A DNA stretch of 64,000 bases, taken from Clytia hemisphaerica. Its lineage: Eukaryota > Cnidaria > Hydrozoa > Leptothecata > Clytiidae. The notes beneath the pieces are model-generated. The model saw nothing but the letters and a program-made list of their open reading frames with translations, had not been told where the DNA came from and did not search any database. This document shows, piece after piece, positions 2,263 through 60,689 of this stretch (positions are counted from its first letter, which is position 1; each line of letters starts with the position of its first letter). Location of the stretch: positions 777,233 to 841,232 of the forward strand of contig CACVBU010001235.1 in assembly GCA_902728285.1 (NCBI GenBank). The letters are read 5' to 3'. The translations under genes were made by a program, and so were the position numbers.

Positions 2263-2897
2263 GTGACGTGTATTTTCCAGACCTTAATGTTATAAATCAA
2301 AGACCAGATCTTAAAATGTTGAATTTTACACTACGACCCACTACGACCTCTATAGTCCGCTCACGACCTCTTTGTAATGGACGACGACATCGATGATTTC
2401 TACGGCGACCTCTATGAATTGAACGACGGCCTCCGTGCTTCGGATTTTTGACCCCGACCCCCCCTGATATTTTATTTAGACTATTTAGTTAGCCTGAGTT
2501 GAAATTTGAATAGGGTGTCAATTTCTATCCTTTTGTATATCAGCATCATGATTAACAACTAGTGGTGAAAATCTTGCTAGCGCCCCGCCCGAGGCGCCCC
2601 ATAGGCTAGGCAAAAAAGAGAACTTAACAGGGGGACAAATTAGCAACGAACAGGGTCTAAATTTAGTAATAACTTATTTGATTGTGATGGTCATTAGCAA
2701 TGGTAGGGATCCAAATAGTATGGTCAAGTTTCCGTTACGTGTTTTTGAGCATCACCTACAAAATCAGCAGAGAGAAATAATTAAGTTTGTAAAACTACCC
2801 CCTGAAAATCACTATGGCATTTGTGTAAATCAATAAGTTCTTTAAAAATGGTACCCGAGCTGTGGAGCAGAAGATCAAACTGAAGGATGCAGAAAGA

Positions 2898-3440
2898 GGA
2901 AGGTGATAGAAATTGACCGTCAACCGAACATCCTCCCTCTGTTTTTCTACTTCCTATCTCTCTATCTCCTTTTCTATTTTCTGACTTTCTGAGACTTGTT
3001 TTCTGATTTCTACTAACTTTTCTATGATTTCTATGAATTTCAAACTTTCTCCAAATATCGACCCGGCCGGGATTCGAACCACCAAATGTAAGAGTCTATG
3101 ATCAGAAACACACCGCGCTATCCATTGAGCCACACTCGCACAGCAGAACACAAAATTAGGAAATACTTATAGAATAACAAAAAAGACGGGGGTAATGTCA
3201 TTATAATATGGGTAAAAGTACCCCTTTTTTAACCTGACTGAAATTCGAGCCGTTACTAGCAACCCTGCGGGGCCCAAGGCGCCGAGTATGCACCCGGCAC
3301 AGTGACAAGCCGTTACTAGCAACCCTGACCCTACCTAACTGTTAGTTAATCAATTCTATACAACAAAACCCCCGGAAACACAAAATCGTAGATAAGAAAA
3401 AAAACCATGTTCGACTGACGGTCAATTTTTATCACCTTCC
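2898..3440. mobile_element. ~540 bp TIR element carrying a tRNA-like module (copy 1)
   Basis: The ends are inverted repeats of about 34 bp with roughly three mismatches, starting GGAAGGTGATA and ending TATCACCTTCC. The element is flanked by a perfect 9-bp direct repeat, GCAGAAAGA (2889-2897 and 3441-3449), as expected for a target site duplication. It has no transposase frame, so it is non-autonomous. Inside, read on the minus strand, are a ~150 bp block with two copies of GGGTTGCTAGTAACGGCT, then a tRNA-like module, then an A-rich tail. The block is almost identical to that in 17152-17690, but the TIRs differ. A 9-bp duplication would suit a Mutator-like (MULE) origin, which is an inference. 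Confidence 0.85.
3060..3140 (-). other. tRNA-like module inside the TIR element
   Basis: On the minus strand there is an A-box-like GTGGCTCAATGG followed by GATAGCGC, and a perfect B-box core GGTTCGAATCC. The A-box region resembles arginine tRNAs, and the loop region reads TTTCTGA (possible TCT anticodon). The acceptor stem does not pair well, so it is a tRNA-derived promoter or SINE head and not a working tRNA gene. Confidence 0.7.
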
Positions 3441-3742
3441 GCAGAAAGATGCTGGTATGTTTTTTGACATTGATGCAGATTGATGGCTGAGTGCTGAGAG
3501 GCAAAAATTTGAATAAAATCTATTGGTGATTGACCGCTTTAAGTGTATCAGAAAGTCAAATTGACAAAGCCAAGGCTGTTGGTGTTAGAGGTACCGTAAG
3601 TTGGTCTAATGTCAACATCATGTCATCCCGCAGATGGAAACTATTATCTTTGCCTAGCAGTCATAGAAGAAAAAATCCCGGGGGGTCATTTCATGCCTAC
3701 GTCATCATGTGGGGTTTTTCAGAGCATCCCAAAATAAAAATG

Positions 3743-3990
3743 CACCTCCGCTCTCTGTCTAAGCTTTGATAGCATCACTTGATAAGAACTTTTTAAAGTT
3801 ATTTTTGTTCAATCTTTTTTTTGCCACAAGCGATTATTCAAGGCTGAGATATAGAAGAACGGGTATAGGCGTTTGCACCTGTGTTTGCAGCCTGACAGTT
3901 TCACTTTCACTTTCACTTTCAGCCAGCGAGTGAGCAAGCGATTCTTTGTTAGAGAATCGTCAAAATAATAACTTCTTTCAGAACCATTGA
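3743..3990. repeat. dispersed ~240 bp repeat
   Basis: A stretch running from ACCTCCGCTCTCTGT through GGCTGAGATATAGAAG to a TTTCACTTTCACTTTCAGC tract recurs in the same orientation at about 12100-12330. Class unknown. The second copy lies inside a larger inverted-repeat element. Confidence 0.75.
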
Positions 3991-4005
3991 AATTCTTCTT
4001 TTATA

Positions 4006-4397
4006 CTTTAGGCGAGAGCAATTTAATTTGTTGTTCTACAGGCCCGACCGACCCTATTTTTGCTAAAATCAAAAAAAAAATAATATTGAATTTCCACTAC
4101 AATATATTTTACACACTACTTATTTGTAAGAATCAAATTTGAATAAAGCTGAAAATTAATTCAAGAAATTGAAAAATTTAGAAAATCGAGCATTCCATAC
4201 ATTAAAATTTTATTATGATCTTCATCGAAGATTAAAAAAGTGAATTTCTAAACTAGATATTTTTTGGAAAACATTTTCGGTACTTTGCGAACCCTGATAA
4301 ACGAAAAATTTATTCTTATTTTACCGACCGACCGACCCATATTTCTCTAACGATCTGCCCGTATAGAACAACAAATTAAATTGGTCTCGCCTTAGGC
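4006..4397. mobile_element. MITE with ~45 bp TIRs
   Basis: The left end reads CTTTAGGCGAGAGCAATTTA and the right end is its imperfect inverse (TAAATTGGTCTCGCCTTAGG). Both are followed inward by AATTTGTTGTTCTA and a GACCGACCGACC-like stretch. About 390 bp, non-coding. Confidence 0.75.
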
Positions 4398-4405
4398 AGA
4401 ATAAT

Positions 4406-5149
4406 AATAGACCTTTTCGCCTTTCCGTCCGCCATCTTGAATTGTATGCAAAAATACAGGAACGAAAATGCCGTGGTTGGATTTAGTTGGAATGTATGCA
4501 AAACATATGCAAGTTTACACAAAGATTAAAAAGACAACAAAGCATCTTATAAATAAATATTATAATCATTAGAACAATAAAAGATGGAATTTCTTGATCC
4601 AAAAGGAAATATTTACAGAACAACAAAAGCCTTTTAGGAATATGTTCTTAAAGACATTGCATATTCTGTTTTCATGCCATTAAAAAATTCCACGAAGACG
4701 GAGTACACATATCAAACTTTCAAAACACGCAAACTGAAAGCAGTAATTATGACGTCACACTTTATCAATGTTTTGATTTGATCATTTGGCGGCTCTATTC
4801 GCTCTATTCCCAGGAGAATAATTTGCCGTCAGCCGAATAAGGATTTTTTTACCTTCGCGGGTGATTTTTCAGTTTGAGTTTTAGTCTAATGTTATGGTCT
4901 TTTAAAGTGCTTGTTCTAAGAGACGAGTGAATATAATTGTTTTTAGTTTTCAAGAGAAGCAAATTTAATCTTTCTTCTACAAGATTACACTTTAATATAA
5001 TGCCAATTATGCATGTAAGTTTTTATTTAATACTTTCTTTTTGCATATGTTTTGCATACTTTCTAAGGGAATTTTACCACGGCAATTCGGCCACCATAAT
5101 TTTTGCATACAATTCAATATGGCGGATGGAAAGGCGAAAAGGTCTATTG
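4406..5149. mobile_element. ~745 bp TIR element
   Basis: Inverted arms of about 50 bp or more start AATAGACCTTTTCGCCTTTC and end GAAAGGCGAAAAGGTCTATT. ATTGTATGCAAAAAT is conserved deeper in each arm. The interior has no convincing coding frame. The right arm contains GGCAATTCGGCCACCAT, also seen in the TIR elements at 39996-40295 and 40723-41305 (the latter with small differences). Confidence 0.75.
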
Positions 5150-5229
5150 ATTTCCAGGTCAAAATGTTTGACACTTGATCCTATTGTTTGCTTATCTTTC
5201 TTGCGTGGTCGTTATTTTAATTTCAGTAT

Positions 5230-6441
5230 TCAATGCTTATAAAATACAGTTGTAATAAGGGTATTCCAAGGGAATTTCCAAAAGACTGGCTTCATGCCCA
5301 CGTATCACCAATCTACAAAGGTGGAAACAAAGACCGCTGCTCGCCAGAGAACTACCGACCAGTCTCACTAACGAGCATTTCATGTAAAATATTAGAACAC
5401 ATTATATATAGCAACATCATTAAACATCTGAACAAACACAATGCCATCACTGAGGTCCAACACGGTTTTAGAGAGAAAAGGTCATGCGAATCGCAACTGC
5501 TATCGCTGTCATGATTTGCCAACAGGGATCAGATGGACACCATATTGCTTTCAGCAAAGCTTTTTGACAAAGTTGATCTCGAAACTTTGCCTCAAACTCG
5601 CCCACTACGGTATCAAGGGTAAATCAATTGGATCCAATCATTTCTATCAGGACGAACTCAACAAGTAATCTTAAATGGCAAATCTTCAGAGAAATCAAAT
5701 GTCACCTCAGGAGTCCCACAAGGAACCGTCTTAGGACCTCTATTGTTCCTAGTTTATATTAACGACATGGCATCAGCTGTTCTCTCCTTGCTTCGACTAT
5801 TCGCAGACGACACCTACCTATATCGAACTATCAAAATCAATTTACGATGCCCTCATCCTTCAGAAGATCTTACAGTCTCCAAGTATGGGAAAAAGATTTC
5901 AACTGGAATTCACCCCAAAAAATGCAAGGTCTTAACATTACAAACAAACGAAACCCTTGAAAACTCATACAGTATTCACAATGAAATCCTCGAATAAAGT
6001 TGACCTGCAAAATACCTTGGAGTCCATAAAAACTAAATGAATAATTCAAGTGGCTAACATAGTAAAAATCAACCAAAGCATCACTTCCTACAGAGAAACC
6101 TCCGAGGCTGCAACAGAACGATCAAATCCCAGGCATACAAGATCTACGTGAAACCCATTCTTAATTATGCATCCTCCGTCTGGAATCCAGTCAACAACAA
6201 AAGCCTCACTAAACAACTGGAGCAAGTCCAACGAAAAGCTGCGCGTTTCGTCTACTCTAACTGGTCCTGGAAATCCAGCCCCACAACTATGATCGACGAT
6301 CTTGGCTGGGAATCCCTTGAATTCGGTCGTAAGAAAAACAATTTACTCATGCTTCACAAAATTGTTAATGAAAAAATTTCCCTACCAAAAGACTTCTTGC
6401 TTCTTGCAAGAATAAACACCAAATTCCGGGAGAAGACATAA
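5230..6441 (+). pseudogene. decayed LINE reverse transcriptase (CR1/jockey group)
   Basis: Broken pieces of a non-LTR reverse transcriptase lie in order on the plus strand. The first has an entry motif (VSPIYKGGNKD) and NYRPVSLTS. The next has SGVPQGTVLGPLLFLVYIND and the catalytic LFADDTYLY. The last is a carboxy-terminal segment (LNYASSVWNPVN). The frame is lost between about 5515 and 5690 and again near 6000, and no endonuclease domain is visible, so this is a dead 5'-truncated copy. Confidence 0.88.
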
Positions 6442-6442
6442 C

Positions 6443-6512
6443 TTGGACCCCCTATATGGACCCCAATATGGACCCCATTATGGACCCCAATATGGACCCT
6501 AATATGGACCCC
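6443..6512. repeat. ATATGGACCCC short tandem repeat
   Basis: Five to six imperfect units of about 11-12 bp (ATATGGACCCCA) directly abut the 3' end of the LINE remnant, in the position where such elements often carry a simple-repeat tail. Confidence 0.8.
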
Positions 6513-6904
6513 CTCAAAAATGGCGAGAAAGCATTTTGGTTGATTAAAGATGCTTTATATTAGACCATCTGATCATTATTTTGTAAAAATAAGTCATTTT
6601 GTCAACATCAGGACAACAGAACAATTGATGAGAATTGCATCTCTAAAACTGCACTTCCCAGTGTTTCCCTCTTCACAATATTTATCTATTTATATCAAAG
6701 GCATCTCATTTGGTACAATTAAAATATTTGGTGTAATAAAGCTAGTAGGTATCCTACTCAAGTGCCTTGTCAATATTTTTGTCGAAAAGTGTCACTTTGT
6801 CAAGAAAATGCCAGGTAGCGTCTTTCTCGTGGAAGAAACACGTTCTTTCAAAACTTTTGAAGTTATGTACAAAGTTCATACAAAAATAAAAATAATAATA
6901 AAAT

Positions 6905-7150
6905 TACTATTTTCAAATCTCTAAAACAGCTCTCTTGGAGCATTTAATGTTTTCATTGCATGACAATCTATATATCCATTTGCACCGCCAGCATCCTATT
7001 GAGCATGAAAAAGCATCTTGTTGTAAATTTGTGTATACACCTCATATTTTGTGGTAATGTCATTATTTACATAACTTAAGTGTCATTAAATTGTCAATAT
7101 TTGGGATGTGGATGATTTGTCATTGAAATCTTCTAAATGGCATATTTTCG
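6905..7150. repeat. subterminal block shared with elements at 34591 and 36735
   Basis: The sequence from ACAGCTCTCTTGGAG through CATCCTATTGAGCATGAA and TTAAGTGTCATTAAATTG to CTTCTAAATGGCATATTTTC matches 36740-37000 in the same orientation and 34700-34985 in the opposite one. Here it abuts GGTAACGAGT repeats. At the other sites it abuts AGGTCAC repeats. Confidence 0.8.
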
Positions 7151-7679
7151 TTGTTACTAAAAGAGGTAACGAGTGGTAACGAGTGGTAACGAGTGGTAAC
7201 GATGTGGTTGGTAACGAGTGGTATGGGTAACGAGGAGTGGTACCAGTTGAAAACGGTGGCCCAAGTCCAAATTTTAATTTCTCGATTCTGGGGTTTTTGC
7301 AACAGATGCTGATGGCTCTTGAGGTTCTGCAGCAGGACCTGGCAGATCTGGTGAATGTGCAGTAGGAATTGGAGATTTGGGGGAATGTTATGGTGGAGTT
7401 GAGGATCTGGTGAATGTGATGGAAATTGGTTGTTGGGTGAAATGCAAAGGTGAAATTGGGTTCTCGTGAATGAATCAAAGATTGATGGTTCGGAGTTTGA
7501 TCAAGGAGTTGGTGATTCTTGTGAATGTGCATCAGGATTGGGGTCTGGTGAATGTTATTGTGGAGCTGATGATTCTGGTGAATAAGCTGTGTTGATGGAT
7601 CTGAAATCCAATCGTGGAGTTGGTGTTTGGTGAATTGCANATGTTATGGTGGATTTGATGATTCTGGTGCATATAATGC

Positions 7680-9050
7680 TGGTGTTGATGGATCTGATGA
7701 ATCCAATGGTGGAGTTGGTGATTTTGGTGAATGTGCATCAGGAGTTGATGCTTCTGGTTAATGTACAGCAGGAGTTGGTGGTTCTGGTGAATGTACATCA
7801 GGAGTTAGTGGTTCTGGTGAATGTACAGCAGGAGTTGGTGGTTCTGGTGAATGTGCAGCAGGAGTTGGTGGTTCTGGTGAATGTGCAGCAGGAGTTGGTG
7901 GTTCTGGTGAATGTGCAGCAGGAGTTGGTGGTTCTGTTGAATGCAATGGTAGAGTTGGTGGTTCTGGTGAATGTGCAACAGGAGTTGGTGGTTCTGATGA
8001 ATCCAATGGTGGAGTTGGTGATTTTGGTGAATGTGCAGCAGGAGTGGGGTTCTGGTGATGTGCAGCAGGAGTTGGTGCTTCTGGTGAATGTTGCAGCAGG
8101 TGGTCTGGTGAATGCAGCAGGAGTTGATGCTTCTGGTGAATGTGCAGCAGGAGTTGGTGGTTCTGGTGAATGTGCAGCAGGAGTTGATGCTTCTGGTGAA
8201 TGTGCAGCAGGAGTTGGTGGTTCTGGTGAATGTGCAGCAGGAGTTGGTGGTTCTGTTGAATGCAATGGTAGAGTTGGTGGTTCTGGTGAATGTGCAACAG
8301 GAGTTGGTGGTTCTGATGAATCCAATGGTGGAGTTGGTGATTTTGGTGAATGTACAGCAGGAGTTGGTGGTTCTGGTGAATGTGCAGCAGGAGTTGATGC
8401 TTCTGGTGAATGTGCAGCAGGAGTTGGTGGTTCTGGTGAATGTGCAGCAGGAGTTGGTGGTTCTGGTGAATGTGCAGCAGGAGTTGTTGATTCTGGTGAA
8501 TGTGCAGCAGGAGTTGGTGGTTCTGGTGAATGTGCAGCAGGAGTTGGTGGTTCTGGTGAATGTAGGTGGTGGTTCTGAATGCAACAGGAGTTGGTGGTTC
8601 TGATGAATCCAATGGTGGAGTTGGTGATTTTGGTGAATGTGCATCAGATTTCGATGTTTCTGGTGAATGTACAGCAGGAATTGGTGGTTCTGGTGAATGT
8701 GCAGCAGGAGTTGGTGGTTCTGTGAATAGAGGGTTCTGGTGGAATGTTGGTGGAGTTGGTGGTTCTGGTGAATGTACAGCAGGAGTTGGTGGTTCTGGTG
8801 AATGTGGTTCTGGTGACAGCAGGAGTTGGTGATTCTGGTGATTCTGGTGATGCAGCAGGAGTTGGTGGTTCTGGTGAATTTGCAGCAGGAGTTGGTGGTT
8901 CTGGTGAGATTGGTCATCAGGAGTTGATGGTTCTGGTTAATGTGCTGCAGGATTTGATGGTTCTGGTGAATTTGATGTTGGCATTGATGGTTCTGGCGAA
9001 TTTGATGGTGGCATTGAAGGTTGTGATGAATGGTTGTAGGAGTTGATAGT
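7680..9050. repeat. 30-bp minisatellite, left arm
   Basis: About forty units related to GGAGTTGGTGGTTCTGGTGA plus ATGTGCAGCA. Since 30 is divisible by three and the unit lacks stops, all three minus frames stay open for long stretches (AHSPEPPTPA, HQNHQLLLHI and TFTRTTNSCC repeats), and plus frames are open too. Simultaneous openness in several frames suggests repeat structure and not selection for one protein. Confidence 0.9.
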
Positions 9051-9224
9051 TCTGCTGAATTTGCAGCAGGAGTTAATATTTTGATAAATTGTTATTGAGA
9101 TGTCATTCATGGATGTAATGAAAATACAGTTATGGTGAATCTGAAATTTTTCGCTAGTTAATGAACGTGTTGTTATTACATCCATGAATAACATCTCAAT
9201 AACAATTTATCAGTATATTAACTC

Positions 9225-10210
9225 CTCTTGCAAATTCACCAAAACTATCAACTCCTACAGCACGTTCACCACAACCATCAATGCCACCATCAAATTCACC
9301 AGAATCATCCACATAACCATCACATTCACCAGAACTATCAAATCCTGCAGCACATTAACCAGAACCATCAATGCAACCATCAAATTCACCAGAATCATCA
9401 ACTTAACCATCACATTCACCAGAACCATCAAATCCTGCTGCACATTCACCACAAGCATCAACTCCTGATGCACATTCACCAAAATTATCAACTCCACCAT
9501 TGCATTCACCAAAACAACCAACTCCTGCTGTATAATTCACCAGAATCACTACTTCCTGCTGTACATTCACCAGAACTATCAACTCCTACTGCACATTCAC
9601 CAGAAACACCAACTCCTGCTGCATATTCACCAGAATCACTACTTCCTGCTGCACATTCACCAGAATCAACAACTCCTGCTGCACATTCGCCAGAACCACC
9701 AACTCCTGCTGCACATTCACCAGAACCACCAACTCCTGCTGCACATTCACCAGAACCACCAACTCCTGCTGCACATTCACCAGAAGCATCAACTCCTGCT
9801 GCACATTCACCAGAACCACCAACTCCTGCTGTACATTCACCAGAACCACCAACTCCTGCTGCACATTCACCAGAAGCATCAACTCCTGCTGCACATTCAC
9901 CAGAACCACCAACTCCACCATTGGATTCATCAGATCCATCAACACCAGCATTATATGCACCAGAATCATCAACTCCACCATAACATTCACCAGAACCACC
10001 AACTACTGATGCACATTCACCAGAATCACCAACTCCTGATGCAGAACCTCCAGAACCATCAATCTTTGATTCACATTCACCAGAACCATCAATTCCACCA
10101 TTTCATTCACCCAAACAACCAACTTTACCATCACATTCACCAGATCCATCAACTCCACCATAACATTCGCCTAAATCTCCAATTCCTACTGCACATTCAC
10201 CAGATCTGCC
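9225..10210. repeat. 30-bp minisatellite, right arm (inverse orientation)
   Basis: The same unit appears as its complement (TTCACCAGAACCACCAACTC plus CTGCTGCACA). The plus strand therefore reads AHSPEPPTPA repeats here. Units near the centre are more divergent than those near 9650-9900. Confidence 0.9.
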
Positions 10211-10408
10211 AGGTCCTGCTGCAGAACCTCAAGAGCCATCAGCATCTGTTGCAAAAACACCAGAATCGAGAAATTCAAATTTGGAGACTTAGGGCCACCG
10301 TTTTCAACTGGTTACCACTCGTTACCTCGTTACCACATCGTTACCACTCGTTACCACCTCGTTACCACTCGTTACCACATCGTTACCCTCGTTACCTCTA
10401 GTAACACG

Positions 10409-11066
10409 AAAAATTATATGAAAAAGAGTAACAGTTGATAGCAGCAAAAATTTAGCTACTAACCGTTTTTTAGGGCCACACCAAATATCTAAATCAATAT
10501 AAAATATGATAGATAATTTGACCAAAAGTTGTTATTTTTACTTGACCCTCCCCCTAAAATCTCAAACCCACTATTTTATTCAGAAAATCTCCTATCCTCC
10601 CCCTATAAAGCACTTTTGGAAAAGGATGGGGACCTCAAAAAAGGGGGATTCACACTATGTTTTAAGTGTGCACTAATTTTTTCTTGACATTGTTTTAATG
10701 CTGGAGTTTTTAAAATTATTCAACATGACATCCCGTTCCTGATTACATAGCTAGTAAAAAGTCTTCCATCGCAGTGCACATTTTAATGACCAGCTTTACT
10801 AAGAGTTCCCGCTTCATATCAGACACATATTTCATAACAACACAGTGCTGATATATGCAAAATGTTTTTCTTTTCCTCTCTCCGGCCAATCTCGCTCCAC
10901 ATCTGTGTTAATCCAATGTGAAAAAGCTTGTGAATTGAAATTAATTAGTATAAAGCAAACGATATCACTCTTATTTAAAAACAAAACCTTTAATTAAACC
11001 GAAATCTTAAGAATCGAACAGTAATCAGCAGTAATCAAACTAAATATCCCGGTAGAGTTTGATTAC
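10409..11066. other. no feature recognised
   Basis: AT-rich sequence with C-rich patches (CCTCCCCCTA). I see no coding frame, terminal repeat pair or RNA-like motif. Confidence 0.4.
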
Positions 11067-11454
11067 TACCTTATGGGCGCCCTTATTGGCGTTATTTTTG
11101 GGACGGTGTTAAAAAGGCCGGCGTAAAAAGGGCCAAAATTTTGCAATTTTTGACCATTTTTTCTCAATTTAAAGGATTTTAGGCATGATTAAAGGATGAA
11201 AATCAATGATTTTCAATGGAATTTTGAACAGTTTAAGAGTGAAAGATGACATTTTAATGTAAATTTTCGTTAATACTTACTGTTTTGAAGCCTGAATAGC
11301 AATTTTTACAAGTTTTGGCGTTATTTACGGCCCTAATTGGCGTAAGCCTAACATTAAGCTTGGGCAGAATAAGGGTCGGCGTAAAAGGGGTCGGCGTTAA
11401 ATTAGGGCTGGCGTTAAATTAGGGCTGGCGTAAAAAGGGCCGATAAGGTATTCG
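11067..11454. mobile_element. MITE with TA-type ends (TACCTTAT)
   Basis: The left end TACCTTATGGGC and right end GGCCGATAAGGTA are inverted repeats. The interior is rich in GGCGTTA / GGCGTAAAAAGG motifs in both orientations. TA at both termini suggests the Tc1/mariner superfamily. No transposase frame. Confidence 0.65.
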
Positions 11455-11940
11455 TTTTGGTTCAGTAATTGAACAGTATTGTTCAATTAGTTTGATGAAA
11501 TTTGATGACACCAACCTAGATCCGCACACCAACAGATAGGTTATTTCCCAGAAATTTTGCCAGAGCTCAAACTGTCTTAGCTGCTTTGTACGGGTGAGAG
11601 TAAATCTTGTATTTTTCTATATTTGATCTGGAGATTTCTGGGGTTTCTGAACCTTTAAGATGTTTCTAGGTTGGACTCATTTTAAGAGTTCAACTTTGAT
11701 ATTTTCAAATAAACGTTTAACGTAGTGGTCTAAAGAAACGACTATTCTTTTTTAGAATCAACCTTACAATCTAGTTTTTATATTTATAAAAACTAGATTG
11801 CTGACGTGTGAAAAGGAATGTCGGCGTGAATGATCCTTTTGTTTCGATAATAACATCAAAGCGGGAACTAATTTTCTTCTCATTCCTTTATTTCCTTTTT
11901 CTTTCTAATAAGTTCAAATCTCCCTCGGACTGTCTCAAGT

Positions 11941-12013
11941 GTGGTTAGCTCAAGTGGTTAGAGCATCCGTCTCATAAGCATGGGTTTCCGAGTTCGATTC
12001 CTCTGGGTGTCAA
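11941..12013 (+). other. tRNA-Met(CAT)-like module
   Basis: GGTTAGCTCAAGTGGTTAGAG matches an A box and D-arm. GTCTCATAAGC has the CAT anticodon layout of elongator tRNA-Met. GAGTTCGATTCC is a B box. The acceptor stem does not pair, so it is probably a tRNA-derived module and not a functional gene. Confidence 0.65.
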
Positions 12014-12583
12014 ATTTTTCAACTCTTCAAATTTCTTATTTTAATTCTCTTTCTATTAAAATGAAGGTCAATCAAACAAGTAACTAGCATATATTACCTC
12101 CGCTCTCTGTGTAAGGTTTAGATAAGCTATGATAGCATCACTTAATAAGAACTCTTTTAAGTTTTTTTTTTTCTTCAATCTTTTTTTTACCACAAGCGAT
12201 TATTCAAGGCTGAGATATAGAAGAACGGGTATAGGCGTTTGCGCCTGCGTTGACTGACAGTTTCAGTTTCACTACTTTTACTTTCACTTTCACTTTCAGC
12301 CAGCGAGTGAGCGAGCATTGATTCTTCAAAAGTTTGACACTTGACCCAATCGTTTGCTTATCTTTCTTGCGTGGTCGTCATTTGAATTCAGCATCAGTTA
12401 TAACTAGTTTGTTATAAGGGTATCAAACTCCTCACTAAGAGAGAAACAGATCAAGATTCGAATTGAACGCGTAATTACTAATAGCAATTAACATTAATAA
12501 GCGTCGAGTCTCTTCACTCCCATGAAATGTGATCAAAATTAAAGTGATGAGCAGAAAAAAAATCAAGAATTGGAAAATTTGAC

Positions 12584-12656
12584 ACCCAGAGGGATCGAAC
12601 TCGGAAACCCATGCTTCTGAGACAAACGCTCTAACCATTTGAGCTAACCATGCTTG
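12584..12656 (-). other. tRNA-Met-like module, inverted partner
   Basis: The inverse copy of the module at 11941-12013. It has GGTTAGCTCAAATGG, GTCTCAGAAGC (CAT changed to CAG at the anticodon) and GAGTTCGATCCC. Differences between the arms show they have diverged since duplication. Confidence 0.65.
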
Positions 12657-13114
12657 GGAGAGACTGAGGGAAAGCTTAAAGTTATGAGAAAGAAAAAGGA
12701 AAGAAAGAAACGAGAAGAAAATTAGTTCCCGCTTTGATGTTATTATCGAAACAAAAGGATCATTCACGCCGACATTCCTTTTCACACGTCAGCAATCTAG
12801 TTTTTATAAATATAAAAACTAGATTGTAAGGTTGATTCTAAAAAAGAATAGTCGTTTCTTTAGACCACTACGTTGTTTTTCAATAGATAAAGAAAAGTTA
12901 AGTTTCATTGATACTATAGATTTATAGTCCTATTTATTTCAAACTCCTCTTCTTTTATTAAAACGCTATTTACCAGGTGTTAATATAAAGAATAAACTCT
13001 ATTCAATCTTGTTCATTCAGTTTTCATAATGGGTTCTCTACAGCTATTCAATCAATTTAGCAGTTTGGCTCTGATTCAATCCAGAGTTTAAATTTTATGA
13101 AAAAGATTAAATTG

Positions 13115-13235
13115 GCCCTTGATATCTATGAGCAGGTGGGATTCGAATCTACACATGAAAAGTACCCTTGGTTAGAAACTCTGTACGCTACCACTAGATC
13201 ACGAAGCCACAGCAAAAATCTGAATTCACAATCTA
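13115..13235 (-). other. tRNA-derived SINE-like sequence
   Basis: On minus, TGATCTAGTGGTAGCG (A box) is followed about 45 bases on by GATTCGAATCCCACC (B box), with no convincing acceptor pairing. I could not find flanking TIRs or a target duplication. Confidence 0.5.
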
Positions 13236-13647
13236 CTTATAGTGTGTATTTCAAAGACCTATATATAAATACCAGATAAAGATAGCAACCTACCAGAATC
13301 GATTTTTTATTCTTCTTTTGCCAAAGTTTTTATATAGACAAAGAATGGGATGTCAAGGTGCTGAAGTAAAGATAGAGTGCAGTCTTGGACAAGTTATAGT
13401 TATAGTTCATCATATTTCAGAATTTTCAAGATTTCAACTCTCTCAAGATTCACTCATTCACCAGCTCTTGCGGTGAGCGGTCACAGGTGTACGAGGCTTA
13501 AAACTGAGTTCTAGTCTGATTTTTTTTTAATTCTGATTCTTTTTCCATTCTTTCCATCATCTTCTTTGAACTGTAAAATGTGTGTGAGAGCCACAGGGTT
13601 GGATAGTGGCAATCCAATCCCAGTTCATTCCCTTCTAGTATGCTTTC

Positions 13648-13987
13648 TACTTTAACCGGATTAAATTTTGCGAGATTAAATTTTGCGAGCTAAAAAAATC
13701 GCGAAATTTTCTGGATTTAATTTCGCGAGTCAGAGTTTTGAAATATTTCGCGTGGATTTAATTTCGCGAATAAGCCAGAAAACAGCTGAAAATAGCTATT
13801 TTTTGCCATAAATGGAGACTTGGAACTAGTTTCTCCGCCAAAAATACAATTTTAAAAGTTTTGTGGTGGATTTAATTTCGCGAATCAGGAATCTCACGCG
13901 TGTTTGCGAGTTTTAATTTGGCAAAAAATGGCAAAAATTCGCGAAATCGCAAAATTTAATCTCGCGAAAATTAATCGGATTAAAGTA
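13648..13987. mobile_element. TTCGCGAA-rich MITE, copy A
   Basis: Ends TACTTTAACCGGATTAAA and TTAATCGGATTAAAGTA are inverted repeats with TA at both extremities, suggesting Tc1/mariner-type insertion. The interior repeats AATTTCGCGAA and GATTTAATTTCGCGAA motifs. Non-coding. Confidence 0.8.
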
Positions 13988-14063
13988 CAACGTTATGGCA
14001 GAAACGGGTCAAAGGTGTGGCAACTTTTCTAGTAGAAAGTATACTTCTTTTCTCACTGTTATT

Positions 14064-14740
14064 TACTTTAACCGGATTAATTTTTGCGAGATTAAATTTC
14101 GCGGTTTCGCGAATTTTCGCCATTTTTGCGAAAATAAAACTCGCGAAATCGTTTGGGATAGCTCGTTCGCGAAATTAAATCCGCGCGAAATTTTTCAAAG
14201 GGGTCATTCGCGAAAATAAATCCACCTGGGTTTTTTTTTTAATTTTGCTTTTCTTAGTTCACTTTTTTTTCCTTTTATGACACAATGATATGAATAATAC
14301 ATCTTTAAAATTGACAATATCTAATCTATTGTGACTACATCACTTTCCTCATTTTCCACATTTTGGGACTTTTTCTCTTGAGAAGATAACGGCGAAGATG
14401 ACGACGAGGATGCGTGGGTTTTGCCAGAGAAGCAACGCTCTGCATTTGACATTTTTGAAAATTTTGATGATGAGAAAGAATTGTAATTTTTGTACCATAG
14501 TTGTTTTTAGCAAAATTGTCAAGTTTCAAGAAAATCGTAAAGATGACTGAAGTAATTTTTTTTTTAATTTCTTCCCTTCGCAAAATTAAATCCACGTGAA
14601 ATTTTTGAAAAGGCTCATTCGCGAAATTAAATCCACGCGAAATTTTTCAAAGGGCTCATTCGCGAAAATAAATCCAAAAAATTTCGCGAATTTTTGAGCT
14701 CGCGAAATTTAATCTCGCGAAAATTAATCCGGTTAAAGTA
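14064..14740. mobile_element. TTCGCGAA-rich MITE, copy B (longer)
   Basis: Same termini as copy A (TACTTTAACCGGATTAAT and TTAATCCGGTTAAAGTA) and the same CGCGAAATT motifs. A ~350 bp non-homologous centre (about 14225-14575) makes it twice as long. The central insert has no recognisable domain. Confidence 0.8.
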
Positions 14741-15854
14741 GTTTCTTCATTTGGTTCCCTGGATTTTATGTTTTAGTTTATTTTATATTATTGCACACAT
14801 TTTAAACTTTCACTAAACACATCTTTTTACAATCTTTTATCTGTGGTGGTGTCTAATTAACACTGCTTGGCCTACCTGCACAACCCTATTTCCATCATAT
14901 AGATAGATAGGAGGATATTTTCACAAATGGCCAAAATCCTGTGCAGGTCGAAAACTGAGGAACAGATCATGTGTTTTGTTAGGCGGCAAGACTGACTCTC
15001 GAAAATTGAGTAGAATTGAGTCGGTGAGTCTGTAAATTTGTCAGACTTTTTCTTTCCTTCGTTCAAAAATTTTATTATTGCCAATTTTTTGCGAGTGATT
15101 TCTAGCACATTCGCGACATTTTGACTTTGTTTATCATTACATGCGCCATAGGTCATAATTTGAAACCACCCATAACACGCAGTTGTTTTGGCTACTGGCT
15201 ACTTTCCTTCAAGAATACACTCCAAAAATGGATGATGGAGGTAAGAAAACCCGAAAATTTTTACAACCGACCCCGACCGACCGTCCGACTCACTTTTTAG
15301 ACCCAACAAGGATGCAAATGAAGATATTTGTGATTGCCGCCTTATTGACTCATATTGATACTCAATTTTGTAAATCAGGTTTGTTTTGATTTAACTATTT
15401 TAATGACCAGACGGATCATTCATTTGAGCGAGGGCTATGCAATGTGCAAGTTTCCCTCCACCACTGATGACTGATGCAAGTTACCCGATCAATCTCACGG
15501 TACTTAAATTAACAAACAAGGGTTGGCCCTAACCCTAGGGGTGCCCCTACCACGGCATTGAGCCCCTTTTCTTACTCCCAACCCTAGTTTGACGCTCTAG
15601 GAGTCAAGTCTCCAACCCTGACCCTAACTGATCCTGCTGACCCCGCCCAAGCAACCGATATAAACGATTTTCACCCGTATATACAGAGATTGAATAACAA
15701 AAAAATCTACTTTCGCCCATACGAAGAAGTCAAAACCAGCTCAAACATTTAGATGTGCAAAATTATTCTTACTTTATTCTTACTTATTCTTAGCCTATAA
15801 TCAGGATAATCAAGACCTAACAAATCGAAACGAAGTGTGTCTCGGGAATTGAAC
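14741..15854. other. no gene recognised
   Basis: No exon series or TIR pair found. Short frames here lack family resemblance. Around 15520-15660 there is a CCCTAACCCTA-like low-complexity stretch. Confidence 0.4.
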
Positions 15855-16876
15855 CAGGGGATGTCAATCGAAAAATTCGATTACCGAATCAATCGAACTT
15901 AATCGAAGCCAATCGAATGATTGATTTTCGATTAGCCGAATTGATCGAATGCCAATCGAATTTCACATCTTTTTATTGATTGGATTCGATTACCGTTCGA
16001 TTAGTTTCGATTAGCTTTGATTGCATATACTTTTCGATTGATTCGATTACTTCGATTAATGTTCGATCAATTCTATTTATGTTCGATTGGCATTCGATTA
16101 ATTCGATTTATGTTTGATTGGCATTCGATTAATTCGATTTATATTCGATTGGCATTCGATTAATTCGATTTATGTTCGATTGGCATTCGATCAAATTTTG
16201 TTCCGTTTTTTTTGTAATTTCGATTTTCGTGGTTCCGTATTTCCTCTATACCGCCGCCCTGTTTTAAGCGCCTCCCTTAATATAAGAGCTGCACCGTAAT
16301 CTCAAGTTTCGAAATAAGCGCCTCCCCCAATAAGCCCCGCCATCCAATAACCGCCGGATTGATCGAGTGCGGCTCGCGTATTACGTGGGAACCAACCCCA
16401 CAGAACTATCTCAGTAGTAATAATTAAAGACACTCCAGAACTGTGTGAAATCAAGTGCGTATTATTACTTATAGGTAATGAATCAACGGATCCTGCACTA
16501 ATGTACTTCCCAGTTTTCTCGTTTTCTCAAAGGTAACGAATCGAGTGGGAATTGAACCCACGACCACTCCAGAAATGGTGGTGTTACAAAAAATCTTCCA
16601 AATTTAGCCCCGCAAAATTTAAACTTTTTAAAGTAAAATCGAAGTTGATCGAACGTTAATCGAAGTTGATTGAACGTTAATCGAAGCTTGTCAAACTCAA
16701 TCAAAACCAATCGAAACCAATCGATCAAATTTCACATGTTTTTCGGTTTCGATTAGAATTCGATTGCCGTTCGATCAATTCGGCTAATCGAAAATCAATC
16801 ATTCGATTGGATTCGAGTAAATTCGATTAATTCGATTGGTTCGATTGGCAATCGAACGTTCGATTGACATCCCCTG
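15855..16876. mobile_element. CAATCGAA-rich hAT-like element with partial tRNA-like segment
   Basis: Ends CAGGGGATGTCAATCGAA and TTCGATTGACATCCCCTG are perfect inverted repeats with the CAGGG start typical of hAT elements. The flanking 8-mers AATTGAAC and GATTGAAA match at six positions, as an eroded target duplication might. Both flanks of the interior are dense in ATTCGATT/AATCGAAT, including ~30-bp tandem units near 16080-16190. A B-box-like GGTTCAATTCCCAC (minus, about 16545-16560) marks the 3' half of a tRNA-like sequence. Confidence 0.75.
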
Positions 16877-17151
16877 GATTGAAAGACAAAAAATTTGGTT
16901 GGTTGATTCTGTTGGCTGCTGCACGTTAGCAATCGGTCATTTTGTTTTATTTCAAGTTTTAATTTAATTGTCTTGCTCTTGGGATCTTGAGCTTGATTCA
17001 GGTATCTCTCATCCGTGTTGTTGCAAATATCTACATCAAATAAAGTGGAAAATCAAAAGCAAAAGTAAAAGGTAAAAAGCAAAACAACATGGCTCCAAGG
17101 TAACTTTGTAAATAAAACCGATCGGTTCCGTAAATTCGAACGGACCGAAAA

Positions 17152-17690
17152 GGAAAACATAAAAGACAAACCTCCAAAATGTGATCGGCTATTGCTCATT
17201 CCGACATTTTAAATTTTCCGGGGGTTTTGCTGTTTGGGATTGTTTAGGTCAGGGTTGCTAGTAACGGCTTGTCACTGTGTCGGGTGCATACTCGGCGCCT
17301 TGGGCCCCGCAGGGTTGCTAGTAACGGCTCGAATTTCAGTCAGGTTTAAAAAAGGGGTACTTTTACCCATATTATAATAACATTACCCCCGTATTTTGCC
17401 AGTTTGGTATAAAATGTTATGAATTGCGTGGTTTTGCTGTGCGGCGATGGCTCAAGGGATAGAGCGCTGGCTTCCGGATCCGAAGGTCTTTCTTTGGTGG
17501 TGGTTCGAATCCCACTCGGTGCGAATATTAGACTGGTCGAAATTGATGAACAAATGATTGACAGGTATGAAAACTCAGTCAGAAATGAGAAACTAAGTCT
17601 CAGAAACTCAGAAGCTCAGACAGTCAGAAAAGAGAAGGACGGGATCAGAGATAAGGATCACATTTCGGAGGTTTGTCTTTTATGTTTTCC
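17152..17690. mobile_element. ~540 bp TIR element carrying a tRNA-like module (copy 2)
   Basis: Inverted ends of about 35 bp with one mismatch start GGAAAACATAAAAGACAAAC. They are flanked by a perfect 9-bp duplication, GACCGAAAA (17143-17151 and 17691-17699). The interior (17240-17400) is nearly identical to the reverse of 3185-3345 in the copy at 2898-3440, including two GGGTTGCTAGTAACGGCT repeats and a GGGGTACTTTTACCC palindrome. Beyond the initial GGAA, however, the TIRs of the two elements are different sequences. No coding capacity. Confidence 0.88.
17437..17523 (+). other. tRNA-Arg-like module inside the TIR element
   Basis: GATGGCTCAAGGGATAGAGCG (A box/D-arm) is followed by CTTCCGGATC, which places CCG at the anticodon, and then GGTTCGAATCCCAC (B box). 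The variable region is longer than in a normal tRNA. It occupies the same place as the differing tRNA-like module in 2898-3440. Confidence 0.7.
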
Positions 17691-17914
17691 GACCGAAAAG
17701 GGGCGCTGGGCGCTGGGAAGTGTTGCGGAAAAATGGGCGGGGCTATCTCGCTCGCTCCTCAATCAACCCTTTTTTGTGTTGTGTGTTATGATGTTTTTGT
17801 TGCGTCCTGCCTGCTTCCTGTCCCCGGTTTCCTGCTAGGAGTCAAACTTATTAGCCTCCTCCCCAGGCAAGCCCTGACTTAGCTTTCATGTGACGCCAGT
17901 AATTTATCCCCTTG

Positions 17915-39336: not shown

Positions 39337-47747
<8,411 letters not shown>

Positions 47748-52984: not shown

Positions 52985-54870
52985 GGTGATTACAAAAAGC
53001 CAACACCTTCAATATAGGTTCGGCAGTTTCTACACGGGCATGATGTAGGCCTCCATTGCTTAATCTTTTCCTTAAAAATACTAAGATCAACTATATCTCT
53101 ATACTCATCCGGAATTAATTCCCAAACTTTTGGCCCTAAAAATGAAAGTGACTCTGAACCGTGAAAAACAGAGTTTATTTCTCTTGATCTGAAGTAAGGC
53201 GTTTTGCGATTTACTTTGATATTTTCATCATGTTTGAAAATTTCTTTAGTTAGATCTGATATGTTATTTTTACATTTGAAAAGTTCTATTGCTAACAACT
53301 GAAGATTTTTATGGTGGAATTTGATGGCACCGTCTTTCTCTAAAAGCTGCTCAAAAGTAGATGTATGATCAGAATACACTATCCTCAAACATCTTTCGTG
53401 GAGGTGATTTATTTTTTGATCTAGCCTGCGAACATGAAACATCCAGACAAGCGAACAATAATTGAATTGACTTCGAAAGAAGGCATTCATGAGCCTTTGT
53501 TTTTTCTTTTGATTTATGTACGGTGCTACCCTCGCAAGTGCACTGATTTTCTGGCTAGCTTTCTTATAAATCATGTTAATGTGTGGCTCAAAAGTCAGAC
53601 AGTTGTCAAAAGTTAATCCTAGGATCTTGCCTGAGTTGCTGTTAAAGATGCGTTCATTCTGTATAGTAATGAAGATTTCTTTGCTGGTATTGTTAGCTAT
53701 CAACTCAGACTTGTCTGCATTTCCTTTCATTTGATTTTGGGTTATCCATTCAAAGATGATAGCAGCTCCATTCGAGAGCTCCTCACCAACCTGTTCCCAA
53801 GAGTCAGCTATCACAAAAGGTGTTGTATCGTCTGCATAATTCAGTACATTTCTATTTTCAAGAAAGTAGAACAAATCTCTCATGTAGATGTTAAATAGTA
53901 GCGGCCCTAGAATGGATCCTTGGGGAACACCTACTTTAACATTATGCCAGGTACTGTAATGGTCGCCAATTTTCGTTCTTTGCTTTCTATCTGATAGATA
54001 GGCTGCTATGAGACCTAAGGCACTCCTTGAAAATCCGTATGCTTCAAGTTTAGCAATCAATAGTTCGTGCGAGATAGATACAGTCGAAAGCTTTTGATAA
54101 GTCAATGAGTAGCGCTGCAAACTTTTTCTTTTCATCTGTAGCTTTCTTCCAAATTTCAGTCATGACTAAAAGTGGAGTTTGTGTACTCATTCCTTTTCTA
54201 TATCCAAATTGTCTATTGCTCAAAATGTTGTTAAAGTAGGTTGAGACTTGGGTATGTATGACTTTTTCATAAATTTTTGACAGAACTGGGAGAATACTCA
54301 CCGGTCTGAAGTTGCCCTTGTCATTCTTTGAACCTTTTCTCTTATACACAGGTGTTATATCAGCAAGTTTCAATTCTTTTGGAAAAGAGTTTGACTCGAA
54401 TGACGCATTTATTTCTGAGCACAAAAACTCGGAAAACATATCACAATTATCCTTTATGATTTTCACTGGAATATCTGAGCTTGGCTGTGATTTTCCTTGA
54501 ACTAAGTCCTTGATAATTTTCCCTACTTCCTCTTTCGTTGTTGGTATAAAAGAAAATTTATTTAGATACTCAGTTTTCTTGATTTCAGTGACACTTGGGT
54601 GTTGTCTATATTTCTGAATACAAATTTCAGTATGATTATTTGTTTCGTCAAATGCAACATAGGGTGGCTCAGGCAAATCTAGTTTTGATATTATTTGGCC
54701 ATAATAGTCATTGAATATTTGAGCTATCTGTTTCTCGTCATTTATGATCTTTTCTTTATCCACTAAGGTATAACTCTTATTGTTTGAACCTTTATTTGAA
54801 AACAATGGTTGTACAGTTTTCCAAAACTTTTTGTTATCAGTTATGTTGGAATCTTTAAGGATTCTTCAGT
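52985..54870 (-). pseudogene. LINE reverse transcriptase (jockey/CR1 group), frameshifted
   Basis: Minus strand, two overlapping frames. The first (54835-54050) has KKFWKTVQPLFSNKG, DITPVYKRKGSKNDKGNFRP and LLIDLSKAFD. The second (54135-52990) has SHELLIAKLEAYGF, VKVGVPQGSILGPLLFNIYM, the catalytic NYADDTTPF, and ends CPCRNCRTYIEGVGFL, a C-terminal signature of this group. The shift coincides with a four-base tandem duplication (TATCTATC) at about 54085. No endonuclease domain, so it is 5'-truncated. Apart from the shift the reverse transcriptase is intact. Confidence 0.92.
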
Positions 54871-57642: not shown

Positions 57643-59097
57643 AATGAGGAGAGATTGTTGCTGAAAGTCATCACAGATGTGGAAGATCGTCAAAGTAGAG
57701 GCGCACGAAAACCCTCACTAAGTAGTATGGCGACACCATGGCTCAAATCACCCGTCTCCAGTTTTGTAAAGGTGAACTTTTAGCGCCGAACTTTCGATGG
57801 AGACTAAAAGCGTTCAACAAGACATTTTCAGTTCCGCTTATGAGTTTCTGGTTAAGGAAAAGAAAACAAGAAGAGTCTTGACAGGATGTTGTCTGCCAGA
57901 CGCCTGTACTTAGTGATAATGAGTGGAGAACGACACAGTGTTGTGATGGATTGTTAAGTACAGGTGAAAAGGACACCTTTTGAACAAATAAGGAGAGGAC
58001 CATATGTTGAAGCGGACCGCATATTCGACCACAACTTCAAACCATCTTTTAATCATCTGTTTATATAAAAGTAGACGAGTAAAGTAGAAGAAAGTTTTTA
58101 AGTTATTTTTGAAAGAATTTCTTGTATTTTTTGAAGGAAATGTTATTTATTATTTACTGAAATGACAGGCATGTATTGTATTGGATATATTTATTTACAT
58201 TATATATTATCACAAAGAGAAAGAATTTGAAATCTTTCCACAATTATGGAGACATTATTTCATCTACTTCAACTAATTTTAAGCACTGATTAAAAAAGGA
58301 TTAAAATCTTCTAATCTTGAACTTAAGTATCAAGTTACGAAAGAAAAACTACTCAAGATATGTCGGTTTGATGACGGGGGCAGGTTGAAACAACAACATA
58401 CCTTTTGTGTCTGGGTCACACTAAGGTTGATTTGGTCATCGTGCCATCGTGATCAATCCATTGATTATTACTTAGTAGCTTCTAAAACAAACAGGGGAGA
58501 CAATACAAAACACTTGTTAACAACATAACCGGATCGATCTATAAATAACTTTTTGAGCTCTTAAATCATAAGACGACGAGACTGAGACCCAAACAGGCGA
58601 CAAGCGAGAAGAGAAGGCAATGATATAAAGTCATCATTTTCATCATCAACATCATCATCAAATCTTTCATACAAAGAGTCATCTGAAGTCATTTTTTGCT
58701 TTTCAAAATCTTTCTTTTTTCGACATTAGTAATGATGTAGTGTTGTTGTTATTAGATTATATACAAATTATTAAAAATATTGATATTACTAAACTCTAAG
58801 AATTATAAACATTTAAAAATTAAAAAACAATCAAGCAAGGAAAAACTATTTGAAAAAATTTCTGCAACATCCCCTACAAATACAGTACAAAAATAGTCAT
58901 GAACTTCTAATAAAAAGTTAATTCTTAACAAACAAGCTAGATGCTGAATGGACCTACCTGATGATGAAAGTTAGATAGCAATGCGAGGAGAAAAAAATCA
59001 GTCAGAAAATATATCGTTTAGCGAAAATGCATAACGCAATAAATTCATCATTGATTGTTGATGGGGGGAGAGGGAAGGGTTGTAGGGAAAAATTAAT
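57643..59097. other. 3' flank of the homeobox gene
   Basis: Probably 3' UTR for the first several hundred bases, then AT-rich DNA. No further exon or repeat pair recognised. Confidence 0.4.
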
Positions 59098-59099
59098 AG

Positions 59100-60500
59100 A
59101 AAGTTCTGGTCGCATAAATCAGTTTTATTGACAATTGAATCATGCTTGATGGTGAGCATTGTTATCAATAATGTTTTTGTGTGAAGAACATAGAAATACA
59201 AGGAAAACATATAATGAAAATCTGCAAAGACGGCGATTTGCGGCATTTTCAACCGGAAAAATTTTTTTCTCAAAAATCGAACTCGGCCATGTTTTGAGCA
59301 TTGCAAATACGCATCTTTCTGCAAAAAATCAGAAAAAGCTAAAGATGAAAATTCGAGAAAATGTAAAAAAACACGGTTTTTAGGCATATTTCTGGCATTT
59401 TCGGCCGGGAAAAAATATTTTTCGAAAATCGGGCTCCGTCACATTTTAGGTATTGTCATTTTGCAATCAGTGTGCAAAATTTTCATGAAAAAAATATAAA
59501 GTACAGCTCGAGAAATTCAAGAAATACCGTTTTTTTTCCGGCGAAAATAGGCTGTTCCGCCGCGGCGATTTTTTTTTAGAAAGTTCCGGCTTCAAAAATC
59601 ACTTTTATTGACAATTAAAAATCCATGCTGATGGTGGGCATTGCTATCAATATTGTTTTTGTGTGAAAAAACAACGAAATATAAGGAAAAAGTCCGATGA
59701 AAATCTGCAAAAACGGCGATTTCCGGGGATATTTCCGGCATTTTCCGCCGGAATAGAATTTTTCTCAAAAATCGGACTAGGCCATGTTTTTTAAGACATT
59801 GTTAATACGCATCTTTGTGCAAAAAATCAGAAAAAACTAATGATGAAATCTCGAGAAAATGCCAAAAAAACCGGTTTTTTCCGGCATATTTCCGGCATTT
59901 TTCGGCCGGAAAAGTACGTTTAATTGAAAATCAGGCTCTGTCATATTTTAGGTATTGCCATTTTGCATCAGTTGTGCAAAATTTCATGGAAAAATATAAA
60001 GTACAGCTCGAGAAATTCAAGAAATACGTTTTTCCGGCGAAAATTAGGCTGTTGTTCCGGCGATTTTTAGAAAGTTCCGGCTTCAAAAATCACTTTTATT
60101 GACAATTAAACCATGCTTGATGGTAGGCATTGCTACAAATAATGTTTTTGTGTGAAAAAACAACGAAATATAAGGAAAAAGAAAGTCCAATGAAAATCTG
60201 CAAAAAAAACGGCGATTTCCGGGATATTTCCCGGCATTTTCAGCCGGAATAGAATTTTCTCAAAAATCGGAACTAATCCATGTTTTTAGGCATTGCTAAT
60301 ACGCATCTTTGTGCAAAAAATCAGAAAAAACTAATGATGAAATCTCGAGAAAATGCCAAAAAACCGGTTTTCCGGCATATTTCCGGCATTTTCGGCCGGA
60401 AATGATTTTTTTTCGAAAATCGGGCTCCGTCACATTTTGGGCATTACCATTTTGCATCTTTGTGCCAAAAATTAGGAAAAACTAATGAGCCAATCCCGAG
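59100..60500. repeat. ~485-bp tandem repeat, about three units
   Basis: Units starting AAAGTTC(T/C)GG followed by CACTTTTATTGACAATT begin near 59100, 59580 and 60071. Each contains two sub-blocks around CATTTTCGGCCGGAAAA / TTTTCTCAAAAATCGGA. Short frames open on both strands are not conserved between units. Confidence 0.85.
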
Positions 60501-60689
60501 AAAAGCTGGTAACGAACGGACGAACGGACAAACAGAGGTTAATTTATAGGACCTACAGCCCACCGGGGTAGGTCCAAAAATTAAAAGGTAGTAAAGTTTC
60601 TGAAAAATGCTGTCAGTGGTCCTCGAACGTTGCATAATCGTATTAAGTATTGATAGCGCTGAATGAATGGATGAAAAGAATGAATGGAT

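Follow-up and report, generated by a model that had tools for sequence, protein, structure and literature searches.

A near-invariant core framed by many kinds of terminal inverted repeat in MULE-like elements of Clytia hemisphaerica

The stretch of Clytia hemisphaerica DNA analysed here (64,000 nucleotides, positions 777,233 to 841,232 of contig CACVBU010001235.1, referred to below as the window) contains two short transposable elements, A and B, which have an almost identical core but are bounded by different terminal inverted repeats (TIRs). Both are non-autonomous miniature inverted-repeat transposable elements (MITEs) of the kind related to Mutator-like elements (MULEs), 543 and 539 bp in length, and each is flanked by a perfect 9-bp target site duplication (TSD); no strand is assigned to the TIRs and TSDs. 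Element A, of end type A (GGAAGGTGATARAAATTGACC), occupies 2898..3440 on the minus strand, with its duplication, GCAGAAAGA, at 2889..2897 on the left and 3441..3449 on the right. The 34-bp TIRs, at 2898..2931 on the tRNA side and 3407..3440 on the core side, are alike at 31 of 34 positions. Between them, also on the minus strand, lie a tRNA-like module (3059..3139), which is Arg-TCT-like by eye and on which ARAGORN and Rfam are silent, and a 95-bp core (3231..3325) containing two 18-bp motifs (3248-3265 and 3308-3325). Element B, of end type B (GGAAAACATAAAAGACAAACCTCC), spans 17152..17690 on the plus strand between copies of GACCGAAAA at 17143..17151 (left) and 17691..17699 (right), and its 35-bp TIRs (core side, 17152..17186; tRNA side, 17656..17690) are alike at 34 of 35 positions. 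The core of B (17252..17346, plus strand; motifs at 17252-17269 and 17312-17329) is one base off the consensus described below, and its tRNA-like module (17440..17524, plus strand) is called as tRNA-Arg(CCG) by ARAGORN and scores 25.9 bits with Rfam RF00005, below the gathering score of 29.

When the two elements are oriented by the motif, their modules follow one another in the same order: TIR, spacer, core, A+T-rich block, tRNA-like module, purine-rich tail and TIR. In both, a TATA-like string in the A+T-rich block precedes the tRNA-like module. Exact copies of GGGTTGCTAGTAACGGCT occur twice in each element, 60 bp apart, giving a total of four in the window against 0.01 expected. The 95-bp cores differ by one base, and 270 bp of the interior are 85% alike. 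The TIRs of A and B have GGAA in common, and their similarity over 30 bases, 0.43, is inside the shuffled range (95% point 0.47). A sequence-only reading of the window had drawn attention to the pair, and the coordinates and letters that it gave for the GGAA starts, the TIRs of ~34 bp and the perfect 9-bp duplications are confirmed, as are the tRNA-like loops TTTCTGA (A) and TTCCGGA (B) and the restriction of TIR likeness to the first four bases. The nearly identical interior of ~150 bp that it described holds good as a shared double-motif core, the invariant part of which is shorter, at ~95-100 bp.

The genome was searched as 417 Mb in 951 contigs, a eukaryotic size that is accompanied by frames like those of long interspersed nuclear elements (LINEs). 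The exact 18-mer occurs in 1535 genome copies and the 35-bp inter-motif part of the core in 936 copies at ≤3 mismatches, with none in the corresponding controls (for the 18-mer, the reversed pattern). In whole-element searches, 40 candidates were scored of 1115 for A and of 1186 for B, the window copy included; among these, near-full-length matches besides the window copy are 91-98% identical to A and 94-99% identical to B, and A has two additional weaker matches of 79 and 85%. We read 92 distinct core loci, 37 picked by similarity to A or B and 55 taken in contig order. They derive from 108 loci (L001-L108), 16 having been dropped as second motifs of the same element or as having a flank in common with a kept locus; L080, a B element, was removed by this rule. 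Types A and B are undercounted in the contig-order sample because L006, L008, L014, L030 and L031 count among the loci picked by similarity; the absence of a B copy at C49:1013165 from the fetched sample adds to the undercount of B. L016 and L014 have common flanks, so that some duplicated haplotypes seem to be present in the assembly and copy numbers may be inflated. Three of 43 zero-mismatch inter-motif matches (C8:1092791, C40:311596 and C49:458072) are missing from the motif listing although within its reach; motif-based sampling therefore loses few intact cores, the losses being of diverged ones.

Twelve end labels (A to L), in at least seven sequence groups, were distinguished among the 92 core loci. 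The contig-order set (n=55) contains E 10, C 9, G 6, A 4, D 4, K 4, F 3, L 3, H 2, B 2, J 2 and I 2, with 4 untyped. Comparing 11 left ends over their first 30 bases (H omitted; 55 comparisons) gave a likeness of 0.67 for C/F, 0.67 for A/I, 0.60 for D/G and 0.57 for J/K, all of which exceed the 99% shuffle point (0.53) that F/I and A/J equal; H and L, compared by eye, have outer sequence in common. Merging C/F, A/I, D/G, J/K and H/L therefore leaves seven end groups. Types J, K and H/L start without GG (AGAAGCGG, AGATTTCG and GCAAATTT, respectively). At all 73 loci typed at both ends (38 of type A or B and 35 of other types), the two ends are of the same type.

With the ends set by the TIR letters alone, a perfect 9-bp TSD was found at 55 of 66 loci of eight types (A 8/9, B 27/29, C 5/8, D 2/3, E 7/9, F 2/2, G 2/4, I 2/2), as against 0 of 4290 cross-pairings; this count omits 26 of the 92 loci, comprising 11 assigned to H, J, K or L, 4 untyped and 11 one-ended. 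Types A and B together account for 35/38 and the six other types for 20/28. Taking the ends from the BLAST match instead, perfect TSDs flank 35 of the 38 fetched relatives of A and B, window copies included, which excludes the coincidental 9-bp duplication that the sequence-only reading had allowed for. The duplications of type J are also 9 bp, perfect in L106, C666 and C768 and 8/9 in C543 and L073 after a one-base shift, and one H copy (L041) has GGATGCTCT at both sides with a two-base offset. Ends of the hAT kind were considered for J and K on the first duplications, read by eye as 8 bp, and were rejected when further J ends gave 9 bp and K ends 9/9, 8/9 and none. A passage of PMC6446971 gives MULE TSDs as 8-11 bp and TIRs as 14-500 bp, and the 9-bp duplications at the TIR-fixed loci lie in that TSD range. 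Like MITEs, the elements are short, bounded by TIRs, lack a transposase and occur in many uniform copies; they measure 275-601 bp wherever both ends and a TSD were found, and most G and J TIR pairs have one spacing (for G, among the first 100 of 135 places). Module exchange had been predicted to show itself as a variety of TIRs around a single core, with 9-bp duplications for each of them; this was borne out, some 12 end types being present.

The core is far less variable than the sequence around it. Between types, median divergence is 0.011 in the core (n=83 loci) and 0.333 in the 60 bases to its left; to its right it is 0.111 in the first 55 bases and 0.351 in the next 180 (n=75). The gradual joint divergence of TIRs and core that would speak for a single tree is thus not seen. 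Within types, core medians range from 0 to 0.011 in A, B, C, E, G, I, J and K, and for most types the core thus diverges about as much within the type as between types. All seven types with n≥4 (A, B, C, D, E, G and K) have one and the same core consensus to the letter, F (one scorable copy) and I (two) agree with it, and the exact 95-bp core is present at 43 of the 92 loci, in eight types. Likeness can run beyond the core: over stretches that include it, a short E element matches single copies of A (149 bp), F (152 bp) and C (113 bp) at 98.7-99.3% identity. The right-hand 180 bp of A and F nevertheless differ by a median of 37%, despite the near-identical core match of both to the same E element. 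An Rfam search of the core gave no match up to E = 5, and the exact 18-mer was not found in viral contigs. The motif GTTGCTAGTAAC may resemble the RFX X-box.

Outside the core, the tRNA-like, spacer and upstream modules are reshuffled among the end types. The upstream block TTGTCATTC is joined to the TCT module in A, D, E and H, and the block GCCAG to the CCG module in B, C, F, J, K and L. Two further combinations bear out the suggested exchange of tRNA modules: in type I the A/D-like block TTGTCATTC precedes a CCG-type module, and in type G a third module stands behind the B-like block GCCAG. A 275-bp form of E without the tRNA block makes up 8 of the 10 E loci in the contig-order sample, and the block is therefore dispensable for amplification. 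Of 22 loci given to ARAGORN (bacterial code), among them L077, a short E without the module, 5 yielded a tRNA call, so that most modules are degenerate as tRNAs. The module could have been captured by the element in the manner of a Pack-MULE.

The core thus stands between at least seven groups of TIR (12 labels), with matched ends, 9-bp duplications and reshuffled modules. We think it probable that these elements are MULE-type MITEs with a common passenger body that has repeatedly gained the TIRs of different MULE families. Each end kind would be mobilised in trans by a transposase from a MULE family whose TIRs match it, a step supported for type L only. If the body landed in or beside another MULE, the outer TIRs might take over as its new ends, the second end being copied from the first by way of the inverted repeat. 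The core would be retained either as homology for recombination of the body or as an aid to amplification, and the data do not separate these.

Several loci bear what look like traces of end replacement. At L071 an E TIR is stacked immediately outside a D TIR at the left end and beyond a D remnant at the right end; element B retains D/E subterminal sequence inside its own TIR. At C517:424292-425372 a 530-bp I element lies inside an A TIR, as read from positions only; it separates A positions 24-543 from A positions 1-32, two segments that overlap by 9 bases in A coordinates. Such stacked ends would arise if an element inserted into a foreign TIR and copying by way of the inverted repeat ensued. 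Plain insertion was rejected for the D-in-E nesting at L071, where inverted and not direct repeats flank the inner D TIR; a second step is therefore needed.

The best view of a possible partner is given by type L. L-type TIRs (78 bp, 99%) flank a 7.5-kb element at C188:29447-36936, which has a perfect 9-bp TSD, AGGGCATCC, and a 568-amino-acid open frame in which a PF10551 domain scores 35.5 bits (cut-off 27.6), one of 91 matches to this MULE domain in the genome. The zero-mismatch core listing, which runs in contig order through C195, has no entry for C188. From the TSD and the lack of a listed zero-mismatch core, we conclude that the L TIR is that of a MULE that transposed while lacking an intact core. 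Further inverted L-TIR pairs lie 4.8 kb (C508), 12.5 kb (C417) and ~49 kb (C797) apart; those on C417 and C797 may be unrelated ends. The sequence-only reading had proposed that ends and tRNA modules are exchanged or that several transposases mobilise one core, and this interpretation is largely supported; the part concerning several transposases stands for type L only, whose TIR is common to the MULE-domain element; no partner is known for A and B, whose TIRs were not searched separately.

A number of observations weigh against repeated gain of foreign ends. The related-looking C/F, A/I and D/G TIRs, with the marginal pair J/K, mean that some of the variety of ends may have come about by ordinary divergence. 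The loci read include fewer than four copies each of types F, H, I, J and L, with one or two scorable cores apiece, and the TSDs of type K are imperfect by eye (L087 9/9, L081 8/9, L086 none). Core divergence within types is raised in three of them (H, 0.074; D, 0.026; L, 0.021), and no copy of D (4), H (2), J (2) or L (3) has the exact core: H and L cores are off consensus, the L copies with a one-base loss at the right edge, and both J copies have one change in motif 1. As all 92 loci contain the exact 18-mer, diverged cores are under-sampled. An autonomous partner is in hand for L alone, the A, B, C, D, F and H TIRs not having been searched separately and those of I and K solely within the left-end queries. 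No inverted pair spans a listed PF10551 match at any of the 46 places of the J TIR, nor does one surround such a match among the first 100 of 135 places for G or the first 100 of 260 for E.

The persistence of the core could also be explained by function. It might be a cis-acting module, such as a host-factor site, an anti-silencing element or a replication aid, held under strong selection in master copies while the TIRs diverge fast together with their transposases, little exchange being needed; we regard this as possible, though the evidence tilts away from it. The identity of the consensus across 95 bp in seven types, with sharp edges, is what it would predict, and the core is present at 12 of 13 E and 6 of 7 G end loci among those listed up to C77 and at 25 of 26 J end loci genome-wide. 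Type E, the commonest in the contig-order sample (10/55), includes there eight copies without the tRNA block, and the 275-bp form implies that core and TIR suffice. Complete identity over 95 bp beside flanks that cannot be aligned is, however, extreme for binding-site constraint, and in some pairs near-identity extends past the core (~150 bp) while the other blocks are mosaic. Private changes pooled over seven types are fewer in the non-motif core (34/4188, 0.8%) than in the left flank (151/7050, 2.1%), a difference that may arise partly because sampling used the exact 18-mer; in dead copies of A and B the two regions change equally fast (14/708 versus 24/1191 in A; 12/1710 versus 20/2895 in B). 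A structured RNA or hairpin was rejected as the function of the core, the folding scores being unremarkable (z +1.30 for DNA; -1.38, +0.48 and -1.27 for RNA). On balance, core occupancy of E, G and J ends, tRNA-less E and the lower pooled rate of core change favour function, the mosaic flanks favour exchange via core homology, and selection on a functional core and recombination through it may act together. Only tentatively would we suggest a more specific form, in which the core is a transposon-agnostic 95-bp cassette that aids amplification in cis with any MULE-type ends, for example through a host factor or escape from silencing. Were this so, successive transposase families would capture the same body, a DNA-transposon counterpart of the central domains of short interspersed nuclear elements (SINEs) that outlives its helpers.

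Two other mechanisms fare less well. A single transposase that recognised the core and a minimal end would leave the TIR sequence largely free, as might be thought from the core being the sole sequence found in all types and from several ends agreeing only in GG and TIR symmetry; we consider it unlikely given the C188 element, with its 78-bp L TIR and 9-bp TSD and no listed zero-mismatch core. It is very improbable that the elements are SINE-like, copied from RNA off a tRNA promoter and merely resembling TIR elements. The tRNA-like module does have strings like the A and B boxes, and the presence of three tRNA-like types on a common body is reminiscent of the SINE families that have a central domain in common. 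Against this stand the TIRs, the fixed 9-bp TSDs, a core upstream of the tRNA-like module, ends common to a MULE, the missing module of short E and the few ARAGORN tRNAs. The elements do not answer to the definition of a SINE (a 5' tRNA head, no TIRs, TSDs of variable length and a simple tail), and SINE-like copying is refuted as their means of mobility.

The window has other repeats. A perfect 482-bp inverted repeat with a 103-nt spacer (42450-43516) encloses a GIY-YIG frame on the minus strand (42669-43055; PF01541, 1.3e-5); it may be a Penelope-like fragment or an assembly fold-back. Two opposite arrays of one 30-bp minisatellite lie at 7263-8936 and 9144-10314, with at most 91% complementarity between arms in the listed pairs. 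LINE-like frames at 44657-47011 and 52990-54159 include RVT_1 in two and the endonuclease domain PF14529 at 46364-47011. A ~490-bp repeat with internal sub-repeats is arranged in tandem at 59092-60522, and an 87-bp repeat pair, 94% identical (3799-3885 and 12165-12251), may represent an additional dispersed family.

A DNA transposon family is usually identified by its TIRs. In the elements described here the stable unit is the internal core and the ends are replaceable, so that families named by their TIRs do not necessarily correspond to lineages. The occurrence in a single genome of hundreds of core copies with some dozen end types provides a natural system for studying how non-autonomous elements switch helpers and for asking whether a non-coding core can raise transposition. 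A parallel is offered by the SINE families with a shared central domain (CORE, V and Deu), in which one domain is combined with different tRNA heads and ends; those are retrotransposons without TIRs, whereas the present elements have DNA-transposon ends and 9-bp TSDs. In plant MULEs with tandem TIRs, TIR duplication is described and its origin left unsettled in the portion of PMC3310237 consulted; the external and internal TIR at both ends, with no TSD around the inner one, are as at L071, but here unlike kinds of TIR are stacked on a common body. The targets of VANC anti-silencing in VANDAL MULEs, as presented in an excerpt of PMC10398659, are likewise repeated short motifs in non-coding parts of MULEs; they diverge rapidly, while the core here hardly varies. 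No description of such an element family was found in the open-access literature. Membership of a MULE family is normally judged by common TIRs, the insides being variable. The present elements agree with MULE MITEs in their TIRs, 9-bp TSDs, lack of a transposase of their own and, for type L, a MULE-encoding relative, and differ in that the inside is shared and the TIRs vary; we judge the arrangement to be a novel variation on MULE MITEs.

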